DNA from: Pseudomonadota bacterium | Lineage (GTDB): Bacteria > Desulfobacterota > Binatia > Binatales > Binataceae | NCBI GenBank assembly: GCA_021324885.1 | Contig: JAJPIF010000005.1 | Location: 1 to 64,000, forward strand | Length of the DNA: 64,000 bases | Direction of reading: 5' to 3' | Shown: one piece after another, positions 8,966 through 40,127 of the stretch | Layout: each line of letters starts with the position of its first letter | How positions within the stretch are numbered: the first letter of the stretch is position 1 | The notes under the pieces: generated by a model | The model's database searches: none | The model's input: only the letters and a program-made list of their open reading frames with translations | What the model was told of the DNA's origin: nothing | Position numbers and translations under genes: made by a program

Positions 8966-11900
8966 TCAGTGCAGCGTAAACGACCCGCTCGGTCCGGTCC
9001 CCGAACTGGTGAACGGCACGAACGGCGGATTGAACGCCTCGATGTACGCCGCTCCCGTCAGCGCGCTGGCCGGCTTGCTGAAGGTAAATTGATTCGAGTT
9101 AATCACCGTCAATGGAATAAGCGGTCCGCCCGGACCCAGACCGCCCAGATTTTGCAGACCGCCGGCCGTGTTGGCAAAAAAGTTGATCACACTGAGCGTG
9201 GAGAAGCCTGCGCCGTTGACCGTGATCGTATTGCCGCTTTGCGTAATCGACGAGATCGAGATCTGCGCCCCGATTGGCACCGCGACCGCGTTGCTCTTGA
9301 CCGCGTAACTGTGAGAGACGCCCGCATTGCTGATTACCAATGAACCGGGGCCGGTGCTGGGAGCGTTTGTTCCGCTGGCGGGCAGCGTAAAGCTGATTTC
9401 AGTGCTGCTCAGTCCCGGATCGCCGGGATTGACAAAAAACGGCCCGACTTTGCCGCCCGTGCAGGCGCAGAACAGGTCCACCGCCACCCCGTTGGTCGTA
9501 TCGAATCCGCTGCCTCCCAGTTTGACTACATTGCCCTGCACCAGCACCGTCTCGACGTTGTCAATCGCGTAGCTCGGATCGCTGCTGGTCGCCGCCAAAC
9601 CGACGCCGTTGACGGTCGTGAGGCTCGGGATGCCGGCAGCGGGAGAACCCTGAAGCAGCGCGTAAGCCACATTGGATGCCTCGAAGCCCTCATCCGTGTT
9701 GATCACCTGCACGGCTACGAAGCCTTCGCCCAGGGGAATCGTTGCAGGGACGGAGACGACCAGCGAAGTTGAAGTCGAACCGGCCGCCGGTTTCAGCGGT
9801 CCGCCATTGATCGGACCACTGGATGTTGCGATGAAGAAGTTCACCACCGATCCGCTGGTGAAATGGCTGCCACCGATCGTGAAATTTGCGCCGACCAGGA
9901 TTACCGATGGCAGGCTGCTGATAACCGGACCGGCGGGTGTGGCGGTCGGCGATGGAGTCGGGGTGCCCGTCTGGGTTGCGGTCGCGGCCGGCGTAGCGGT
10001 GGCTTTGACGCCTGTGCCCGTCGGCGTAGGGGTGGCTTTCAACGGCGTGTTGGTTGGCGTTGCGCTTTCGCCCGGAGTAGCGGTCGGCGTGGGCGTAGGC
10101 GTGGGCGACGCCGACCCGAACGACATCACCAGGTTGTACGCGTTGACGGTGCCGATCCCGGTGGCGAAATCCCATCCGGTGGTTGCGGTATAGGCGGGCT
10201 TAAACGACGAATCCGAGGTCGATAGGACGCCGAATCCCGCGGACGAATCGAAGCAGTTCTGGGAACCGGTGCATGGCACGTCCATGTCGCCCGTCGTCAC
10301 GTCATAGAAGATGCAGGACTTGCCAACCTTGTTGCCCAGTGAGGAATTGCACGACGACGAACCCGAGGCGCCGTACTCTTTGGCAGCCAGCGAGTAATAA
10401 ATGGGATTTGGATTGCCCTGGCGGCTTTTCGCGTGCTGATTGGCCAGCGCCTGAATGGCGGCCATGATTGGCGCGGCAACCGACGTTCCACCGAAGATCG
10501 ACCAGGTGTCGGGAGCACCGGAACACGGTGAGCCGCCGTTGGCGGTATCCGAGTAGCAGACGATATAGCCGTGGTCCCAGACTCCGTCGGCGGCGAACAT
10601 CGCTACGTCGGGAACATCGCGCACGCCGTCGCTGGGATTGCCCAGCACGGACTGCCATGACGGTTTTTTGTATCCGGCACACGTGCCGCTGACCACCCCG
10701 GGCGTCGAGGGCGCCCCGGTGGCGCATCCGCTGGGACCGCCGCTGCCACCCGTAATGTTCAATAAATAGCCCGCGTTGCACAGGCTGGATGGACCGAAAG
10801 TGCTGCTGAACCCCAGATATGCCGCGATCAGGCCGCTTGCGCACGAATCATTCCAGGGAATCTCGGGAATGTACGAAAGCGCGGAACCAAAATTGCTTCC
10901 GTTGCTCGAACTCCAGTAGGTGCTGGTCGTACCGCTGACCGAATCGCCAAAATCCGTACCGCCGACCGCCACGTTGTAGGGCGTGGAGGCGGCTCCGTTG
11001 ACGGCGATGCCCAGGCTGGCGGCCGACTCGAGTCCTTGCCTGAACGGGCCCTGATCGGCGTAAGCGGCCGCCGAATCGCCGGATGCCACGAAGACGGACA
11101 CTCCGGCCAGCACTGCGGTTTGATACAGCGAATTGATAGCGGCGTTGAGCGTCGCGCCCTGGATCGCCTCGGCGACACCGTAGCTGTTGCTGACAATCGC
11201 GGGCGGAGTTCCGGAGGCATTGAGCAGGTTTTGCAGCGCCAGCAATTCCCCGCGAGTGGCTGACGTATCCGCGCACGCAGCCAGTTCGATCGCCGCGCTG
11301 GGCGCCGCCGCGCTCGCCCATTCCGCGTCCAGAATCGCTTCGCCGTCGGCGCCGTTTACGCCCGGGTCAGTGCAGCCGCCCGGATGAATCTGGGAAACGG
11401 AACCCGCGGGAAAGGCAGTCGAAAGGCCGAACGTGGATCGGAAAGTGCTCCAATCGCTCAGCGAAAAAACATCCGATTCCTCGACCACAACGATAGTCTG
11501 GCCCTGGCCCGAGATGGAGGCGGTGAACAGCGGGTTGAAGTCATAGATCGTGGCCAGATCCGCCGGCACGATCGACAGACACGTGCCGCTGCCGGTAAGA
11601 ATTCCGCAGTTCGAGCTGGGGAAAGTGTACGCGGGTTGGGGACGCGGCTTGGGCGCCGGCGCGAAGTTGTTGAGCGATACCACCCCAACGATTGCCGGGG
11701 CCAGCGCCGCCGGAATTTGCGGATCGCTGGCGTTGGCGACATACATTTTTCCATTGACCTGGAAATAATGAATCTGGGTGTGGAACGCCTCCTGAACCTG
11801 GCTCGCATTACCCGAAAAATCAATAACGAGGCGATTGGCGTAAATCCGGTTGACCGTAAATCCGTGCGACTGCAGCCAGTTCGTGACCGTGTCCACATCC

Positions 11901-12259
11901 TGCGGCGCGGGGCCAAATCGTTGGCCGACTTCCTGCGGAGTCAGCCAATGGTGATAGTTCGGCGATCCGGGGTTCTCGACCTCGTCGATGTACTTTTCGA
12001 CTGCCTGCTCCTCTTCCGGCGGACGGCGCAACTGGAGCAGGATGTGGTCCATCGGTAACTGGGGCGCGACCGGACCGCGATCGTTGCGGGCATTAGCTTC
12101 GGGACGGGTATTGCCAGCCAGCGTGACCAGTGCCTTCTCGTCGATTGCGGCGGTAATAAGCGGGCGCGCTGAGCCCCCAATGGCGAACCCAACCGAAAAA
12201 AGGAGCGCCAGGCAGCTCAACCAAAATGGAGCGGCGGGAAGCTTTAACCTGATTCCCAT
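8966..12259 (-). CDS. Secreted S53 (sedolisin/kumamolisin-type) peptidase with C-terminal IPT/TIG-like domains
   Basis: Exported serine-carboxyl peptidase of about 1097 aa. The order is: signal peptide (hydrophobic run after MGIRLKLP), a pro-kumamolisin activation domain with the LTPQEVGQRFGP motif, the S53 catalytic domain with the Glu/Asp pair in GEAILDAEWA and the nucleophile in GGTSVAAP, a Thr/Pro/Ala-rich linker of some 60 residues, and C-terminal beta-sandwich repeats resembling IPT/TIG folds (GSHFTSGSVVNFF, GSGFDTTNG, GAGFSTLSVINFF). The frame is open to an ATG at 12319, but the signal peptide places the likely start at 12259. The family works at acidic pH. It stands alone on the minus strand. 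Confidence 0.88.
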   Translation of the reverse strand: MGIRLKLPAAPFWLSCLALLFSVGFAIGGSARPLITAAIDEKALVTLAGNTRPEANARNDRGPVAPQLPMDHILLQLRRPPEEEQAVEKYIDEVENPGSPNYHHWLTPQEVGQRFGPAPQDVDTVTNWLQSHGFTVNRIYANRLVIDFSGNASQVQEAFHTQIHYFQVNGKMYVANASDPQIPAALAPAIVGVVSLNNFAPAPKPRPQPAYTFPSSNCGILTGSGTCLSIVPADLATIYDFNPLFTASISGQGQTIVVVEESDVFSLSDWSTFRSTFGLSTAFPAGSVSQIHPGGCTDPGVNGADGEAILDAEWASAAAPSAAIELAACADTSATRGELLALQNLLNASGTPPAIVSNSYGVAEAIQGATLNAAINSLYQTAVLAGVSVFVASGDSAAAYADQGPFRQGLESAASLGIAVNGAASTPYNVAVGGTDFGDSVSGTTSTYWSSSNGSNFGSALSYIPEIPWNDSCASGLIAAYLGFSSTFGPSSLCNAGYLLNITGGSGGPSGCATGAPSTPGVVSGTCAGYKKPSWQSVLGNPSDGVRDVPDVAMFAADGVWDHGYIVCYSDTANGGSPCSGAPDTWSIFGGTSVAAPIMAAIQALANQHAKSRQGNPNPIYYSLAAKEYGASGSSSCNSSLGNKVGKSCIFYDVTTGDMDVPCTGSQNCFDSSAGFGVLSTSDSSFKPAYTATTGWDFATGIGTVNAYNLVMSFGSASPTPTPTPTATPGESATPTNTPLKATPTPTGTGVKATATPAATATQTGTPTPSPTATPAGPVISSLPSVILVGANFTIGGSHFTSGSVVNFFIATSSGPINGGPLKPAAGSTSTSLVVSVPATIPLGEGFVAVQVINTDEGFEASNVAYALLQGSPAAGIPSLTTVNGVGLAATSSDPSYAIDNVETVLVQGNVVKLGGSGFDTTNGVAVDLFCACTGGKVGPFFVNPGDPGLSSTEISFTLPASGTNAPSTGPGSLVISNAGVSHSYAVKSNAVAVPIGAQISISSITQSGNTITVNGAGFSTLSVINFFANTAGGLQNLGGLGPGGPLIPLTVINSNQFTFSKPASALTGAAYIEAFNPPFVPFTSSGTGPSGSFTLH

Positions 12260-12376
12260 TATTTGTGGTTGATTTCTGTTTTCTTCGGCTGAATTCTTTA
12301 GGTCCGACGGCCATCTCATAAATGGGCTTGCTTTCCAGTTTTACCGAGCGGCGCAACAAGCGCGGCTCGTGATATT

Positions 12377-34523: not shown

Positions 34524-35942
34524 TTAGCTCCTGGGATAAGCGTCGCTGCCCATTTCCAGGGTGTCCAGGCCTGACCATTCGACTTCGGCGGCGACACGGT
34601 TGCCGATAGTGCGTTCAACCACGGCGAAGAAGGCGAGGGCCAAACTGAAGACCACCACCAGGTTGGTGCAGACGCCGATTAGCTGGGCGAAGAACTGGCC
34701 GCTGTCGCCGAACAGCAAACCGCGAACCGGCCCCGCGACGCCGTTCCAGCCCAACCCGTAACTGCCGTCGGCGAAAATACCCAGCGCCAGCGCTCCCCAC
34801 AGGCCGCAGACGCCATGGACCGCGATCGCACCGACCGGATCGTCGACGTACAGATGGCGTTCCAGCATGATCACGCTCCAATCGGTGATCAGGCCGGCGA
34901 CGATGCCGATGACTATCGCCGCCCACGGCGACACGAACGCGCACGGCGCGGTGATCGCCACCAGTCCCCCGAGCAGGCCGTTGCAGCTGATTGCGATATC
35001 CGGCCGCTTGTACCGCAGCCACATCGTTATCAACGCGGCCAGCGCGCCTGCCGCGCTCGCCAGCATCGTGTTGACGGCGATGAGCGCGATGCGGGCGTCG
35101 GAGGCGGCGAAGGTCGAGCCGCAGTTAAAGCCAAACCATCCAAACGCCAGGATCAGCGTGCCCGCGATGGCCATCGGCAGATTGTGCCCCGGCATCGCGC
35201 CGACCGCTTTGTCGCGGCGGAATTTGCCGATTCGCGGCCCCAGCACCAGCGTGCCGGCCAGGGCCGTAACGCCGCCGGTCATGTGGACTACCGAGGAGCC
35301 GGCAAAATCGACGTGTCCATGTCCCAGGCCGAAATTCATGCCCAATTGCGACAGCCATCCTCCACCCCAGACCCAGTTGCCGTAAAGCGGGTAGAGGAAC
35401 ATCGACATGAACAAGCCGTAGATGAAGAAAGCGGAGAACTTCCACCGCTCAGCCATCGCCCCGGTCGGGATCGTCGCCGCGGTGTCCATGAAAACGACCG
35501 CGAACAAAAACATCGCGAGGCTGCCGGGATCGCTCGCCACGCCCAGCAGACAGAACTTGCTCAGACCGAGCAGACCAAAGCTGTGTGCGCCGGCATGCCA
35601 GACGAGTTCGTGATGGGCGAGGGCGGTCGAGCCCAGCGAAGGATACTGGCCGACGCCGCCCAGCATCAGGCCGTACCCGGTCAGGAAAAATCCGATCAGC
35701 CCGATGGGGTAGATAATCAGATTCATGGCCATCGTGTTGACGGCGTTTTTGGCGCGGGTAAACCCGGTCTCCAGCATCGCGAATCCCAGTTGCATGAACA
35801 TGACCAGGAAACCGGTAATCAGAATCCAGGCCAGATTGAGCGAGGGAACGCTGGCGCCGCCGTCGGCGCCCAGGGCGGCAGCGGGAGCGATCAGCAAACC
35901 GGCGCCAAGTACGGCCAGAGCAAAGCTGCGTGAAGGGCTCAT
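34524..35942 (-). CDS. amt: Ammonium transporter (Amt family)
   Basis: 472 aa: signal peptide-like N-terminus, then 11 TM helices of the Amt/MEP/Rh fold. Seen: the DFAGSSVVHMTGG motif with the first pore histidine and AVHGVCGLWG with the second. The start is the ATG at 35942; an upstream extension of the frame overlaps the kinase gene and is spurious. That ATG overlaps the kinase stop (ATGA), so the transporter is translated with a Ser/Thr kinase. No glnK-type PII gene is adjacent, which is the more usual Amt partner. Confidence 0.94.
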   Translation of the reverse strand: MSPSRSFALAVLGAGLLIAPAAALGADGGASVPSLNLAWILITGFLVMFMQLGFAMLETGFTRAKNAVNTMAMNLIIYPIGLIGFFLTGYGLMLGGVGQYPSLGSTALAHHELVWHAGAHSFGLLGLSKFCLLGVASDPGSLAMFLFAVVFMDTAATIPTGAMAERWKFSAFFIYGLFMSMFLYPLYGNWVWGGGWLSQLGMNFGLGHGHVDFAGSSVVHMTGGVTALAGTLVLGPRIGKFRRDKAVGAMPGHNLPMAIAGTLILAFGWFGFNCGSTFAASDARIALIAVNTMLASAAGALAALITMWLRYKRPDIAISCNGLLGGLVAITAPCAFVSPWAAIVIGIVAGLITDWSVIMLERHLYVDDPVGAIAVHGVCGLWGALALGIFADGSYGLGWNGVAGPVRGLLFGDSGQFFAQLIGVCTNLVVVFSLALAFFAVVERTIGNRVAAEVEWSGLDTLEMGSDAYPRS

Positions 35943-36952
35943 CGTAGCGTACCGCGATAGGCGCCTTGAGTATGTGCGGGCGCGGCCGGAAAGCGGCGCG
36001 CCAGCCATATCAGCAGGCCCAGGATAGCGATCAGTGAGACGAAAAATAATCCAGTCATAAGGATGGTCCGAAAACGTTTCCAACTGGCGCGCGGACGCAG
36101 GCTGGCGGCGCGTCCGGTAATTTGCACGCGGGAGGGATCTTCCAGGTCGGCGAGCATCTCTCGCGCGCTGGGGTAACGGTTGCGCGGCGCGCGCTCGATC
36201 GCCCGCAGCACGATTTCTTCCAGCTTCGGGTCCAGATCGGGCACCCACCTGCTCGGCGGCTGGGGATCGTCGGACGACTTGGCCTTCATCACCGCATACA
36301 CGTTGACGCCTTCATAGGGCAGGTTGGCGGTGAGCATTTCGTAAAGGATCATTCCCAGTGAATAGATATCGGTGCGGGCATCGCCGCGCCGCCCGCTGAT
36401 CTGCTCCGGCGCCATATAGTCGGGCGTGCCGATCGTCGTCGATAGACCGGCCCAGGTCAGGCGGCGCGCGCTCTCGTCCAGGGCGATCCCGAAATCCATG
36501 ATTTTGACTTGATCGTTCTCGGTAACCAGGAGGTTTTCGGGTTTGAGGTCGCGATGGACCACACCCTGGGCATGCATGTAAACCAGCGCGCCGCAGACCT
36601 GACGGGCATAGCCCAGCGCCCGTTGGGGCGCAAAAGGACGCTTGTCGCGGAGCATCGCGCGCAGCGAGACGCCCTCGACGTATTCCATCGCGATATACAT
36701 GCGACTTTTGCGCCGCGGGGTGAGGACCTTGATGATATTGGGATGGTCCAGGCGCTGGCCGATAGCTTCCTCGCGCCGGAAACGCTCGTAGAAGACCACG
36801 TCGGATTCAAACTGCGGATACGGGACTTTGAGCGCGACGGTGTGGCCGCTTTCGGTGTCGATCGCCTTGAGGATCGAAGCCATGCCGCTGCGCGCGATCA
36901 ACTCCGTAATCTGGTATTGGTCGAGTCTCTCCCCGACGCTGACCTCGCGCAC
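35939..36952 (-). CDS. Transmembrane Ser/Thr protein kinase
   Basis: 337-aa Hanks-type kinase. Catalytic K42 (VALK), HRDLKPEN at 133-140, DFG at 153-155 and the APE motif (MAPEQ) are present. The glycine-rich loop is degenerate (ARSGMAS in place of GxGxxG). A single TM helix near residues 298-318 leaves only about 18 residues outside, so there is no PASTA or other sensor domain. The start is a GTG. It is preceded by a PP2C phosphatase gene and overlaps the ammonium transporter start, suggesting a local phosphorylation switch. Confidence 0.9.
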   Translation of the reverse strand: MREVSVGERLDQYQITELIARSGMASILKAIDTESGHTVALKVPYPQFESDVVFYERFRREEAIGQRLDHPNIIKVLTPRRKSRMYIAMEYVEGVSLRAMLRDKRPFAPQRALGYARQVCGALVYMHAQGVVHRDLKPENLLVTENDQVKIMDFGIALDESARRLTWAGLSTTIGTPDYMAPEQISGRRGDARTDIYSLGMILYEMLTANLPYEGVNVYAVMKAKSSDDPQPPSRWVPDLDPKLEEIVLRAIERAPRNRYPSAREMLADLEDPSRVQITGRAASLRPRASWKRFRTILMTGLFFVSLIAILGLLIWLARRFPAAPAHTQGAYRGTLR

Positions 36953-37014
36953 CGTTATACGCCTGGGTTCGCCATCGTTAGGCTGCGCACGTTATCACCG
37001 GCAATTTGAGCCGG

Positions 37015-37860
37015 TCAACGGCCTCCTCGCAGCAAGCTGCGCAGGCGCCCACGCCATCCTGAGGGCGGCAGATTTGCGGGGTCGCATCCGTTATGGGCAA
37101 TCATTACGGCGACGCTGACATTATCGGGGGCTCCGCGTTGATTGGCCTGGTCGATGAGCTGGCGGCAGGCAGCCGCCGGCGGCAGTTTGCGCGCAATCGA
37201 GTCCAACTCCCGATCCTCGAGCATGCTCCATAATCCGTCGGTGCAGACGATCACCCTGTCCCTGGGGCGCAGCGGCATCGTCAGGCGGTCAAGCGAGGCG
37301 ATCAGCTCGCGTCCAAGGCAGCGGCTAAGCGCGGAGCGTTCGGGATGGTTGCGGGCTTCGCGTTCGCTGATCAGCCCCATCCGCATCCGTTCGCCGACCA
37401 CGGTATGATCCTTGGTCAACTGCGCAATCCGCCCGCCACGCAGCAGATAAAGCCGGCAATCGCCAATATGAACGGCGTGCATGACGCCATCGCTCACCGC
37501 AACCGCAGTCAGCGTAGTGGCCATCCGGCGCAGTTCGGGCACGGTCAGGGCGCGGTTATGGATTTCGATATTGGCGCGCTGGACCGCGCGATACAGCCGT
37601 TTGGCGGGACCGATGGAAGGCGGATTTTCCTGATAGGCGGCGATGGTGATCTCGACCGCCATCCGGCTGGCAATCTCGCCGCCCTCGTAGCCGCCCACGC
37701 CGTCGGCCAGGGCAAACACCGCCTCAGTGGGACTTAGGATCGCATGACCGCAGAAGTCCTCGTTGTTCGAGCGCGCGCAGCCGACATCGCTGAGCAGCGC
37801 CAGTTCGAAATCGAAAAGCTCAGGGTCGCCGGTCACTTGCTCAATTCCAGGTTCTGCCAC
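37015..37860 (-). CDS. PP2C-family protein phosphatase
   Basis: 281-aa Mg/Mn-dependent Ser/Thr phosphatase of the Stp1/PrpC type. Metal-binding and catalytic motifs: SDVGCARSNNEDF, ADGVGGYEGGE, VCTDGLWS and DNVSVAV. Likely start is the GTG at 37860 with AAAGG upstream. It lies 62 bp before the kinase gene on the same strand, so the pair is expected to act reversibly on the same targets. Confidence 0.92.
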   Translation of the reverse strand: MAEPGIEQVTGDPELFDFELALLSDVGCARSNNEDFCGHAILSPTEAVFALADGVGGYEGGEIASRMAVEITIAAYQENPPSIGPAKRLYRAVQRANIEIHNRALTVPELRRMATTLTAVAVSDGVMHAVHIGDCRLYLLRGGRIAQLTKDHTVVGERMRMGLISEREARNHPERSALSRCLGRELIASLDRLTMPLRPRDRVIVCTDGLWSMLEDRELDSIARKLPPAAACRQLIDQANQRGAPDNVSVAVMIAHNGCDPANLPPSGWRGRLRSLLRGGR

Positions 37861-37956: not shown

Positions 37957-39612
37957 TCAGGCGGTCTTGGCAACCACCATCGTCTGCTTGCCGCGCTTGC
38001 GCGAGTTGCGCATGAAGTAGATCGCTCCGTACACGCCCCAGATGACCGAGATCGCCACCGCCATCAGCGGCTCCTTGACGCTGCCCAGGCCTTCGATCGG
38101 TCCGATGATATAGAACGCCATGCAGGCGAAGTTCGCCACGGCGCCGAAAATCGGAATCACCATGTGCTTGAGCCCGTGAAACTCGTGATGCTCGCGGAAG
38201 GCCACGATACAGACGATGTTGGTCAGGCCGTAGAGCATGAAGGTGCCGAAGTTGGATACCAGCGTCACCAGCTGCAGGCCGTTGGGCAAGGCGGAAAGCG
38301 AGGCGTTGGAACTCATGCCGATCGCGTACCACAAGTTGTGCGGCAGACTCGCGATGGTCTTGTCGTCGGGCGCGGCGGCGCCGGCGAAGAAGTAAAGCGC
38401 GGCATAGGCGCCGAGCACGGCCGATATCGTGGCGAGCGTCCAGATTGCGCGATGCGGTGTGAGCGTCTCGCCGTGGAGCAGCCCGAAATGTTCGGGCACT
38501 TCCTCGTCGCGGCCCATCGCATAGGTCACGCGCGCGCCGGTGTTCATGCAACTGAGCGTGGTGCCGATCAGGGCCAGGAAGACCGTGAAGGCTTCCACCA
38601 GCATGAAGGCCTGACCGTGGCCGCCCAGCAGCGAGTTGCCGAGAATGACCATCATGTCGCCGATCGGCGCCGCCGAGCCTTTCGCATCCGCCAGGCTGTA
38701 GGCGCTGCTCATGAAGTAATTGGCGGCGAAGTATTCAATCAGGTAACAGAACAGGCACTGGATGGTCAGCGAAAGCAGAACGCCGCGCGGGATATCCTTC
38801 TTGGGATTTTTCGCCTCTTCGCCCAGCGCGGTAACCGATTCGAATCCGACCAGGAGCAGGATCGCGATGGTTGCCTGCAGCATCATCCAGTTGAAGTTAT
38901 GCGGCAGGACCACCGAGATACCGCTGGGATGCGCCGGGGCGTTGCCGGTCAGCGAATAACTCAACTTTTTCATGGTCCCGTCCAGCGCCATGCCCATCGA
39001 ACCCGCCGGATGGCTCAGGCGATAGGAGATTGCGAGCGCCGAGAAGAACAGCAGCGCGACGATCTGGATCGCATTGATCGCGATGTTGACGTTGGTGGAT
39101 CCGGTCACGCCGCGAAACGCGATATATGCCACGACGTAGGAGAAAACGATCGCCACCAGCGCCATGAAGACCGGGCCGGGCACGCTGGCGCTCATCGAGG
39201 AAGGCGCGATGCTGCCGATGATGTATCCGATCATGACGCCCATCGTCGCGACCATCACGCCCGGATAAACCCAGTAGTAAAGATGCGAAGCCCAACCGAT
39301 CACGAATTTCGCTATGCGGGCGAATTTGTACGCATGCGTGGTGTTGAGAAAAGCCTGCTCCGCGAACAAATAAGAACTGCCTGCGCCGGGGAAAAGCTTG
39401 GCCAACTCCGAATAGGAAATTGCGGTGGCGTAGGCCAGCATCAAAGCGGCAAAAATCCCGGCCCACATCGCCATCCCCGACGGATACGCGTATCCGGCCT
39501 GAACGACGAAGGTGATCCACAGGAAGGCGCCCGGGGCGATCAACGCCATCGCGTTAACGGTCACCCCGGTCAGACCCAAGGTAGGCACCATTTTTGGTTG
39601 TTCTTCCGCCAT
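37957..39612 (-). CDS. APC-family amino acid/polyamine permease
   Basis: 551-aa polytopic membrane protein with about 12 TM helices. The N-terminal TM1 region LTGVTVNAMALIAPGAFLW and PGAGSSYLFAEQAF, plus GFESVTALGEEAKNPKKDIPRG, are characteristic of the APC superfamily. The substrate cannot be assigned. A strong SD (GGAGGGAG) precedes the ATG. It is upstream of, and on the same strand as, the phosphatase-kinase-Amt run, separated from it by 96 bp. Confidence 0.9.
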   Translation of the reverse strand: MAEEQPKMVPTLGLTGVTVNAMALIAPGAFLWITFVVQAGYAYPSGMAMWAGIFAALMLAYATAISYSELAKLFPGAGSSYLFAEQAFLNTTHAYKFARIAKFVIGWASHLYYWVYPGVMVATMGVMIGYIIGSIAPSSMSASVPGPVFMALVAIVFSYVVAYIAFRGVTGSTNVNIAINAIQIVALLFFSALAISYRLSHPAGSMGMALDGTMKKLSYSLTGNAPAHPSGISVVLPHNFNWMMLQATIAILLLVGFESVTALGEEAKNPKKDIPRGVLLSLTIQCLFCYLIEYFAANYFMSSAYSLADAKGSAAPIGDMMVILGNSLLGGHGQAFMLVEAFTVFLALIGTTLSCMNTGARVTYAMGRDEEVPEHFGLLHGETLTPHRAIWTLATISAVLGAYAALYFFAGAAAPDDKTIASLPHNLWYAIGMSSNASLSALPNGLQLVTLVSNFGTFMLYGLTNIVCIVAFREHHEFHGLKHMVIPIFGAVANFACMAFYIIGPIEGLGSVKEPLMAVAISVIWGVYGAIYFMRNSRKRGKQTMVVAKTA

Positions 39613-39800: not shown

Positions 39801-40127
39801 TCAGCGCCGCCTGGGCGTTACCAACCGCAGGTTGCGCTGCTGACCCTGGCGGTTGCGGCTGTCGACGCGCTTGTTGCTGCGCGGGGTGCCGACGCGATTG
39901 CGAGTGCCGCGACGCCGCTCCATCCGGCCCAGCATAAAACCCGTCGCCATCAACAGCCCGATCGCCACGATTACCGCCAGCGCCAGCAACGCCTCGCTGG
40001 TGCGGACCGGCTGCACCGGACGGGGATTGGCCGGCCTGCTGATTTCCGGGACTGCTGCCGAGAGTGACACTTTCGCTATCCACCTTTGAAAATCTGCGCG
40101 ATTCAGAGCAAAAGCTCTGCCACCCAC
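39801..40127 (-). CDS. Possible small membrane protein, 108 aa
   Basis: One clear hydrophobic segment (ALLALAVIVAIGLLMATGF, about residues 46-65) followed by a strongly basic Arg-rich tail. No family is recognised. The opposite strand is also open across the region, so coding status is uncertain; the TM segment favours this strand. Confidence 0.4.
   Translation of the reverse strand: MGGRAFALNRADFQRWIAKVSLSAAVPEISRPANPRPVQPVRTSEALLALAVIVAIGLLMATGFMLGRMERRRGTRNRVGTPRSNKRVDSRNRQGQQRNLRLVTPRRR

Follow-up and report, generated by a model that had tools for sequence, protein, structure and literature searches.

A Ser/Thr kinase and PP2C phosphatase encoded with amino acid and ammonium transporters in Binataceae: possible form of an old nitrogen-acquisition operon

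Background

In the PrkC/PrpC and PknB/PstP systems, the gene of a transmembrane (TM) Hanks kinase adjoins that of a PP2C phosphatase; the cyanobacterial protein PphA is a PP2C phosphatase as well. Here we describe, from a soil bacterium of the Binataceae, a gene run in which a similar pair, differing by a kinase without PASTA ectodomain and by other neighbours, is encoded together with transporters. The run lies in a stretch of 64,000 nucleotides (positions 1 to 64,000 of contig JAJPIF010000005.1, assembly GCA_021324885.1), which we call the window, and comprises genes for an APC-family amino acid permease, a PP2C phosphatase, a PknB-like Ser/Thr kinase and an Amt-family ammonium transporter. 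On balance, we favour its interpretation as an old operon for nitrogen acquisition, here in its Binataceae form and governed by a kinase/phosphatase pair acting over transporters, glutamine synthetase (GS) or PII.

Control of nitrogen metabolism by Ser/Thr phosphorylation is already known, and the module described here is a new variant on that theme. In Actinobacteria, the cytoplasmic kinase of the PknG-GlnX-GlnH system acts on GarA/OdhI and controls glutamate and nitrogen metabolism (excerpts of PMC6069109 and PMC9769921). In both cases a Ser/Thr kinase is encoded with nutrient-related membrane genes; our module differs in combining a TM PknB-like kinase with its own PP2C phosphatase, an APC permease and Amt or GS. 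Ser/Thr phosphorylation likewise takes part in the nitrogen signalling of cyanobacteria, where PII is phosphorylated on Ser49, its phosphatase is PphA and its kinase, unidentified as of 2015, was proposed in 2023 to be SpkB (excerpts of PMC4285133 and PMC11863333). However, PII of the genome studied here has Ala at residue 49, and an Amt/APC operon is absent from the descriptions in those excerpts.

Yeast Mep2 is activated via Npr1 phosphorylation at Ser457 (PMC4852598, in part). It is an Amt-family protein under Ser/Thr phosphorylation of its C-terminal region, as we propose here, but it is eukaryotic, and its site lies in a segment that the same source describes as absent from bacterial proteins. 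Ks-Amt5 is an ammonium sensor made of an Amt fused to a histidine kinase (PMC5764959, in part); an Amt fold is coupled to a kinase there too, but the kinase is a fused histidine kinase, and the ion-site residues D50 and T51 are missing in the window Amt. The sensor in the excerpt of PMC12918730 is a different ammonia sensor, not of the Amt family. As far as the cited excerpts go, none of the parallels PknG-GlnX-GlnH, cyanobacterial PII and Mep2-Npr1 has this gene set, and targeted searches of openly licensed PMC papers gave, by title, none that links a Ser/Thr kinase or PP2C to Amt or GS.

Results

The gene run in the window

Open reading frames (ORFs) and Pfam matches define four co-directional genes on the minus strand. 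The run begins with the APC-family amino acid permease of CAT/ApcT-like fold (37957-39612, 551 residues; PF13520, 3.9e-20), followed after 96 bp by the Stp1-like PP2C-type Ser/Thr protein phosphatase (37015-37860, 281 residues; PF13672, 2.1e-19). After another 62 bp comes the PknB-like Ser/Thr kinase (35939-36952, 337 residues; PF00069, 1.8e-50), with one C-terminal hydrophobic, presumably TM, segment, and then the Amt-family ammonium transporter (34524-35942, 472 residues; PF00909, 4.3e-108). The last two genes overlap by four nucleotides, ATGA (35939-35942, minus strand), which contain the kinase TGA (35941-35939) and the amt ATG (35942-35940). This ATG is the plausible amt start, and the residues after it resemble a signal peptide on visual inspection; the listed Amt ORF reaching 36248 is an upstream extension from a far-upstream GTG within the kinase gene. 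An earlier, sequence-only reading had described a run of PP2C, TM kinase and Amt, with the ATGA shared between kinase stop and amt start and the phosphatase 62 bp upstream. All three genes and their distances are correct, but the run was drawn too narrowly, as the permease gene 96 bp upstream of the phosphatase was overlooked.

Conservation in Binataceae and its class

Amt, kinase, APC and PP2C were searched in the same 96 genomes, 41 of the family (own genome included) and 55 from outside it. The Amt clade of the window is present in 30 of the 41 family genomes at 70-100% identity (in two pieces in G031 and G038), every one of these 30 genomes having the kinase as next match upstream of it on the same strand, cut by a contig end in G012. 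The kinase occurs in 34 of the 41; seven have neither kinase nor this Amt, one of them being 53% complete. Outside the family, six of the 55 genomes carry the kinase, always with PP2C on the same contig; APC is on the kinase contig in four, in pieces in the fifth and, in the sixth, on a different contig. Of the 96 genomes, 35 have both kinase and APC at E <= 1e-60, 5 have the kinase only, 1 has the APC only and 55 have neither (Fisher p 1e-19, by a test that ignores phylogeny). The own genome also has a second copy of the permease, 76% identical, on a contig other than that of the kinase (G000:C23:55629-57266).

With predicted starts, an ATGA at the kinase stop is usable as amt start in 27 of 51 kinase-linked loci, namely 26 of the 30 unique loci taken as Binataceae and L117. 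Because of this frequency in the family, the overlap in the window is beyond chance, and its dismissal as a quirk of the genus can be ruled out. In 12 of 16 Myxococcota-like loci, amt could begin 1-3 nt past the kinase stop, and in the three Geobacter loci the gap is at least 300 nt.

The sequence-only reading contrasted this linkage with the usual one of Amt to PII, and named an unconserved linkage together with a separate glnK-amt operon as its refutation. This refutation does not apply: the linkage is conserved, and the own genome (96% complete) has two Amts, neither near a PII gene; its four PII matches, three of them weaker (26-46 bits), are all on contigs without Amt match, and no PII gene adjoining amt, as in a GlnK-AmtB operon, was found in it. 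Relatives nevertheless have other Amts that are PII-linked (L065-L075). Among 29 loci of other Amts in the 96 genomes (L065-L077, L081-L096), none has a kinase match and 19 have PII. PII also lies in the stretch around the cluster at L045, L050 and L064, and in 22 of 99 unique kinase loci altogether, so that kinase linkage and PII linkage of Amt are not mutually exclusive.

Two branches of a wider module

A scan of genome contigs with the kinase only gave 429 loci. Among the best 80 of them, where many stretches end at contig ends, we found PP2C in 66, APC in 57, Amt in 46, GS in 26, BBP2 porin in 23 and PII in 18. Pooled with the loci from family and class and cleared of repeats, the scan gave 99 unique loci, 60 of them with at least 5 kb upstream and at least 3 kb downstream. 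These 60 contain PP2C in 53 cases, APC in 51, Amt in 34 (a count inflated by L037-L064, which were fetched by Amt), GS in 17 and PII in 16; Amt or GS is present in 49, Amt, GS or PII in 52, and none of the five in two. For a control, we went to seven of the same genomes and picked by hand 40 neighbourhoods of other kinases, 10.5-19.5 kb long, 19 of them from Anaeromyxobacter oryzae and some containing several kinases. APC, Amt, GS, PII and porin occur in none of these 40, and PP2C in five.

A quick tree built from 60 kinases of the module and 36 of the control, with SH-aLRT support, without bootstrap and with several long control branches, places the module kinases in one group (SH-aLRT 95). 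Nested inside it is L208, a paralogue from A. oryzae that shares 55% identity with the window kinase and has no module neighbours. The group falls into two branches. The Amt-side branch (SH-aLRT 97) has 37 rows, 24 with Amt, 10 with APC/PP2C only, two others and L208, and its members come from Binatota, Myxococcota, Geobacter and Acidobacteria. The GS-side branch (SH-aLRT 98) has 24 rows, 16 with GS, five with APC/PP2C only and three others, from Chloroflexota, Bacteroidota, Ignavibacteriota and Armatimonadota. Going by record titles, the module is distributed over Binatota, Myxococcota, Geobacter, Acidobacteria, Chloroflexota, Bacteroidota/Ignavibacteriota and Armatimonadota. The core APC-PP2C-kinase adjoins Amt, sometimes with PII, in one branch and GS in the other, and a single Amt/GS change separates the rows so labelled. 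The sequence-only reading, which suggested that Ser/Thr phosphorylation controls ammonium uptake or an ammonium-sensing signal, is partly supported: its kinase-amt linkage is kept in all 30 family genomes with this Amt. It must be widened, since PP2C and APC accompany the kinase most often, GS replaces Amt in the other branch, and four of the 34 kinase-bearing family genomes lack this Amt.

Behind the kinase, 25 loci have GS, with spacings that range from a 45 nt overlap between matches to 290 nt; matches to both Amt and GS occur in three loci of Chloroflexota (L151, partial at the stretch end, L169 and L170). Several Myxococcota loci have PP2C and APC encoded by the opposite strand. A single ORF comprises both PP2C and kinase at L135, L136 and L138-L141, six loci from Acidobacteria gp5, Geobacter and one Deltaproteobacteria metagenome-assembled genome; that of Geobacter argillaceus (L140 6188-7981) is a PP2C-Ser/Thr kinase fusion of 597 residues and the single Pkinase gene of this organism at E <= 1e-20. 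Two contigs of archaeal metagenome-assembled genomes (L145, L148) have kinase and PII-like matches and none of the other genes sought, possibly through a binning error.

Other genes recur beside the cluster. BBP2 porin genes (PF07642) lie in or next to it in 25 of the 99 unique loci, in Binataceae, Myxococcota and Bacteroidota; examples are L055 7345-9006 and L056 4936-6456 (PF07642 checked) and L161 3300-4397 (by similarity). An AsnC/Lrp-type regulator is encoded near the cluster at L178 4175-4786, and its ORF cluster appears in 29 fetched stretches (contig repeats counted), mostly of Binataceae. Many further recurrent ORF clusters were set aside because they resemble antisense ORFs in GC-rich DNA.

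Kinase and phosphatase

The window kinase is of the Hanks type: the VAxK lysine, alpha-C Glu, HRD and DFG are present in it and in 75 of 75 aligned relatives (50 of 50 Amt-linked, 25 of 25 GS-linked), its Pfam match exceeds the cut-off, and PknB is matched in the PDB at 3.6e-53. Its glycine loop, ARSGM, is degenerate. The Amt-linked kinases share the form [AS][RK]SGM, from which the first two glycines are absent, the second being Ser in 50 of 50. By hydropathy, the strongest hydrophobic 19-mer reaches a TM-like score in all 75 aligned module kinases. The residues that follow this segment number 22 in the window kinase, which has no ectodomain, and a median of 19.5 in the 50 Amt-linked and 6 in the 25 GS-linked kinases; with such a short tail, the kinase itself would hardly be able to bind an external ligand. 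It is not a PASTA-type PknB/PrkC, as NF033483 scores 290.6 bits against a cut-off of 450 and covers the kinase domain only (residues 11-277). Nor is it of the PknG type, whose kinases are cytoplasmic, have a TPR domain and neighbour glnX/glnH; it is a TM kinase of 337 residues with only kinase Pfam matches and with different neighbours. The phosphatase matches NCBIfam Stp1_PP2C_phos (NF033484) over nearly the whole profile at 209.1 bits, where the curated cut-off is 230, and exceeds the Pfam PP2C_2 cut-off.

Ammonium transporter and permease

With 377.3 bits to TIGR00836 (cut-off 343.3), the window Amt belongs to the Amt/Mep/Rh family. The Phe gate (F151 and F272), the twin His (H220 and H376), the filter Trp/Ser and the Asp of the pore are present, and are kept in 46-49 of 49 kinase-linked Amts. 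Two positions of the C-terminal tail set the linked Amts apart. Position 466 is Ser/Thr in 42 of 49 linked Amts, 3 of 30 unlinked ones and 2 of 11 that share a locus with the kinase without following it; for position 457 the counts are 38 of 49, 0 of 30 and 0 of 11. We guess that S457 and S466 in this tail (...EVEWSGLDTLEMGSDAYPRS) are candidate phosphosites. Thr461 (GLDT) was rejected as a site, as it corresponds to Ala in 24, Ser in 13 and Thr in 4 of the 49 linked Amts and its hydroxyl is therefore unconserved.

The best PDB sequence match of the window Amt, above E. coli AmtB, is 6eu6, which we take to be the sensor Ks-Amt5. A two-ion sensor site of the Ks-Amt5 type was rejected for the window Amt: the positions of D50 and T51 are Ile77 and Tyr78, and there is no fused signalling domain.

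The AlphaFold2 model of the permease (mean pLDDT 84.1) matches GkApcT (6f34) best in the PDB, with Z 35.0 and rmsd 2.5 over 414 aligned residues; together with the PF13520 match above cut-off, this assigns it to the CAT/ApcT-like members of the APC superfamily. Reading the transported substrate from the fold was rejected, as KimA and NKCC1 chains also reach Z 30-32. A 108-residue ORF at 39801-40127 of the window, without Pfam or NCBIfam match, has 50% identical counterparts adjoining the APC gene in both same-genus genomes. Farther away, at 8966-12319, lies an ORF of 1117 residues with a pro-kumamolisin activation domain.

Discussion

The gene content and order, their conservation, the catalytic residues and the single kinase clade form the basis on which we propose how such an operon might work. 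We suppose that its genes are co-transcribed, that the kinase is active and that nitrogen is the signal; a nitrogen role is suggested because Amt, GS and PII are alternative partners. The core would consist of the membrane-anchored PknB-like kinase, the PP2C phosphatase and the APC amino acid permease, joined by Amt (and sometimes PII) in this branch and by GS in the other. Kinase and phosphatase would together determine how far the transporters are phosphorylated, and likewise GS or PII where these are the partners. As a consequence, uptake of amino acids and ammonium and their assimilation would track the nitrogen status. The substrates and the signal named here are guesses, offered as proposals only. 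A bolder version, which we regard as tentative, is that the ectodomain-less kinase senses nutrients via an APC/Amt transceptor and, together with PP2C, switches Amt or GS by phosphorylation, a widespread and undescribed form of nitrogen control.

Several observations weigh against our interpretation. Firstly, Amt is not obligatory: the kinase occurs without this Amt in four of the 34 family genomes (G003, G015, G026, G036) and in all six kinase-bearing genomes of the class outside the family, none of which has Amt beside the kinase, and L177 and L179 have no module gene within about 6-7 kb of the kinase. In G003, APC and PP2C are together on a contig other than that of the kinase. The inflated Amt count of the 60-locus pool and the neglect of phylogeny in the kinase-APC test belong here too. 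Secondly, with a glycine loop that lacks its first two glycines, kinase activity could be unusual. Thirdly, the linked Amts are mostly one clade, so that the contrast in tail Ser/Thr is confounded and clade history alone could yield it; moreover, Val occupies position 466 in the four linked Amts of the Geobacter type.

The strongest rival holds that the transporters are the sensors. APC and/or Amt would be transceptors through which the kinase is informed of amino acids or ammonium outside the cell, and the kinase would have its substrates elsewhere, for example among metabolic enzymes or regulators. A kinase with a TM-like segment and hardly any tail behind it would fit such a role, as would the place of 6eu6 ahead of E. 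coli AmtB among the matches of the window Amt. Of the seven NH4+-site residues named in the excerpt of PMC5764959, five are present in the window Amt, but each of the five is also found in 21-25 of 30 unlinked Amts. Also against it, D50 of Ks-Amt5 is replaced by Ile, Val or Leu in all 49 linked Amts, and the core persists without Amt. We consider this explanation possible, but less likely than our main interpretation.

It is unlikely, in our opinion, that kinase and phosphatase work for the APC permease or in some other homeostatic role, with Amt and GS as mere nitrogen-regulated neighbours in the operon. PP2C and APC are indeed the commonest partners and are able to stand without Amt, GS and PII, and in seven loci only APC-PP2C-kinase was found among the genes sought. 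However, 49 of the 60 well-flanked loci contain Amt or GS, mostly directly behind the kinase with a start/stop overlap or a short gap. That the linkage arose by an accident of lineage and has no bearing on regulation seems very improbable: neighbours of shared ancestry are not independent and the Fisher values ignore phylogeny, but the set survives in both kinase branches and through the rearrangement seen in several Myxococcota, and APC, Amt, GS and PII are absent from all 40 controls.

Many bacterial Ser/Thr kinases still lack an assigned signal and assigned substrates. For the kinase of the proposed nitrogen-acquisition operon, nitrogen-gene neighbours across phyla point to a likely signal and to a short list of substrates, and among the organisms with this kinase are isolates, for instance Anaeromyxobacter oryzae and Geobacter argillaceus. 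If our assumptions are true, then bacterial ammonium uptake would be under phosphorylation control, like that of yeast and plants (as described in the excerpt of PMC4852598).

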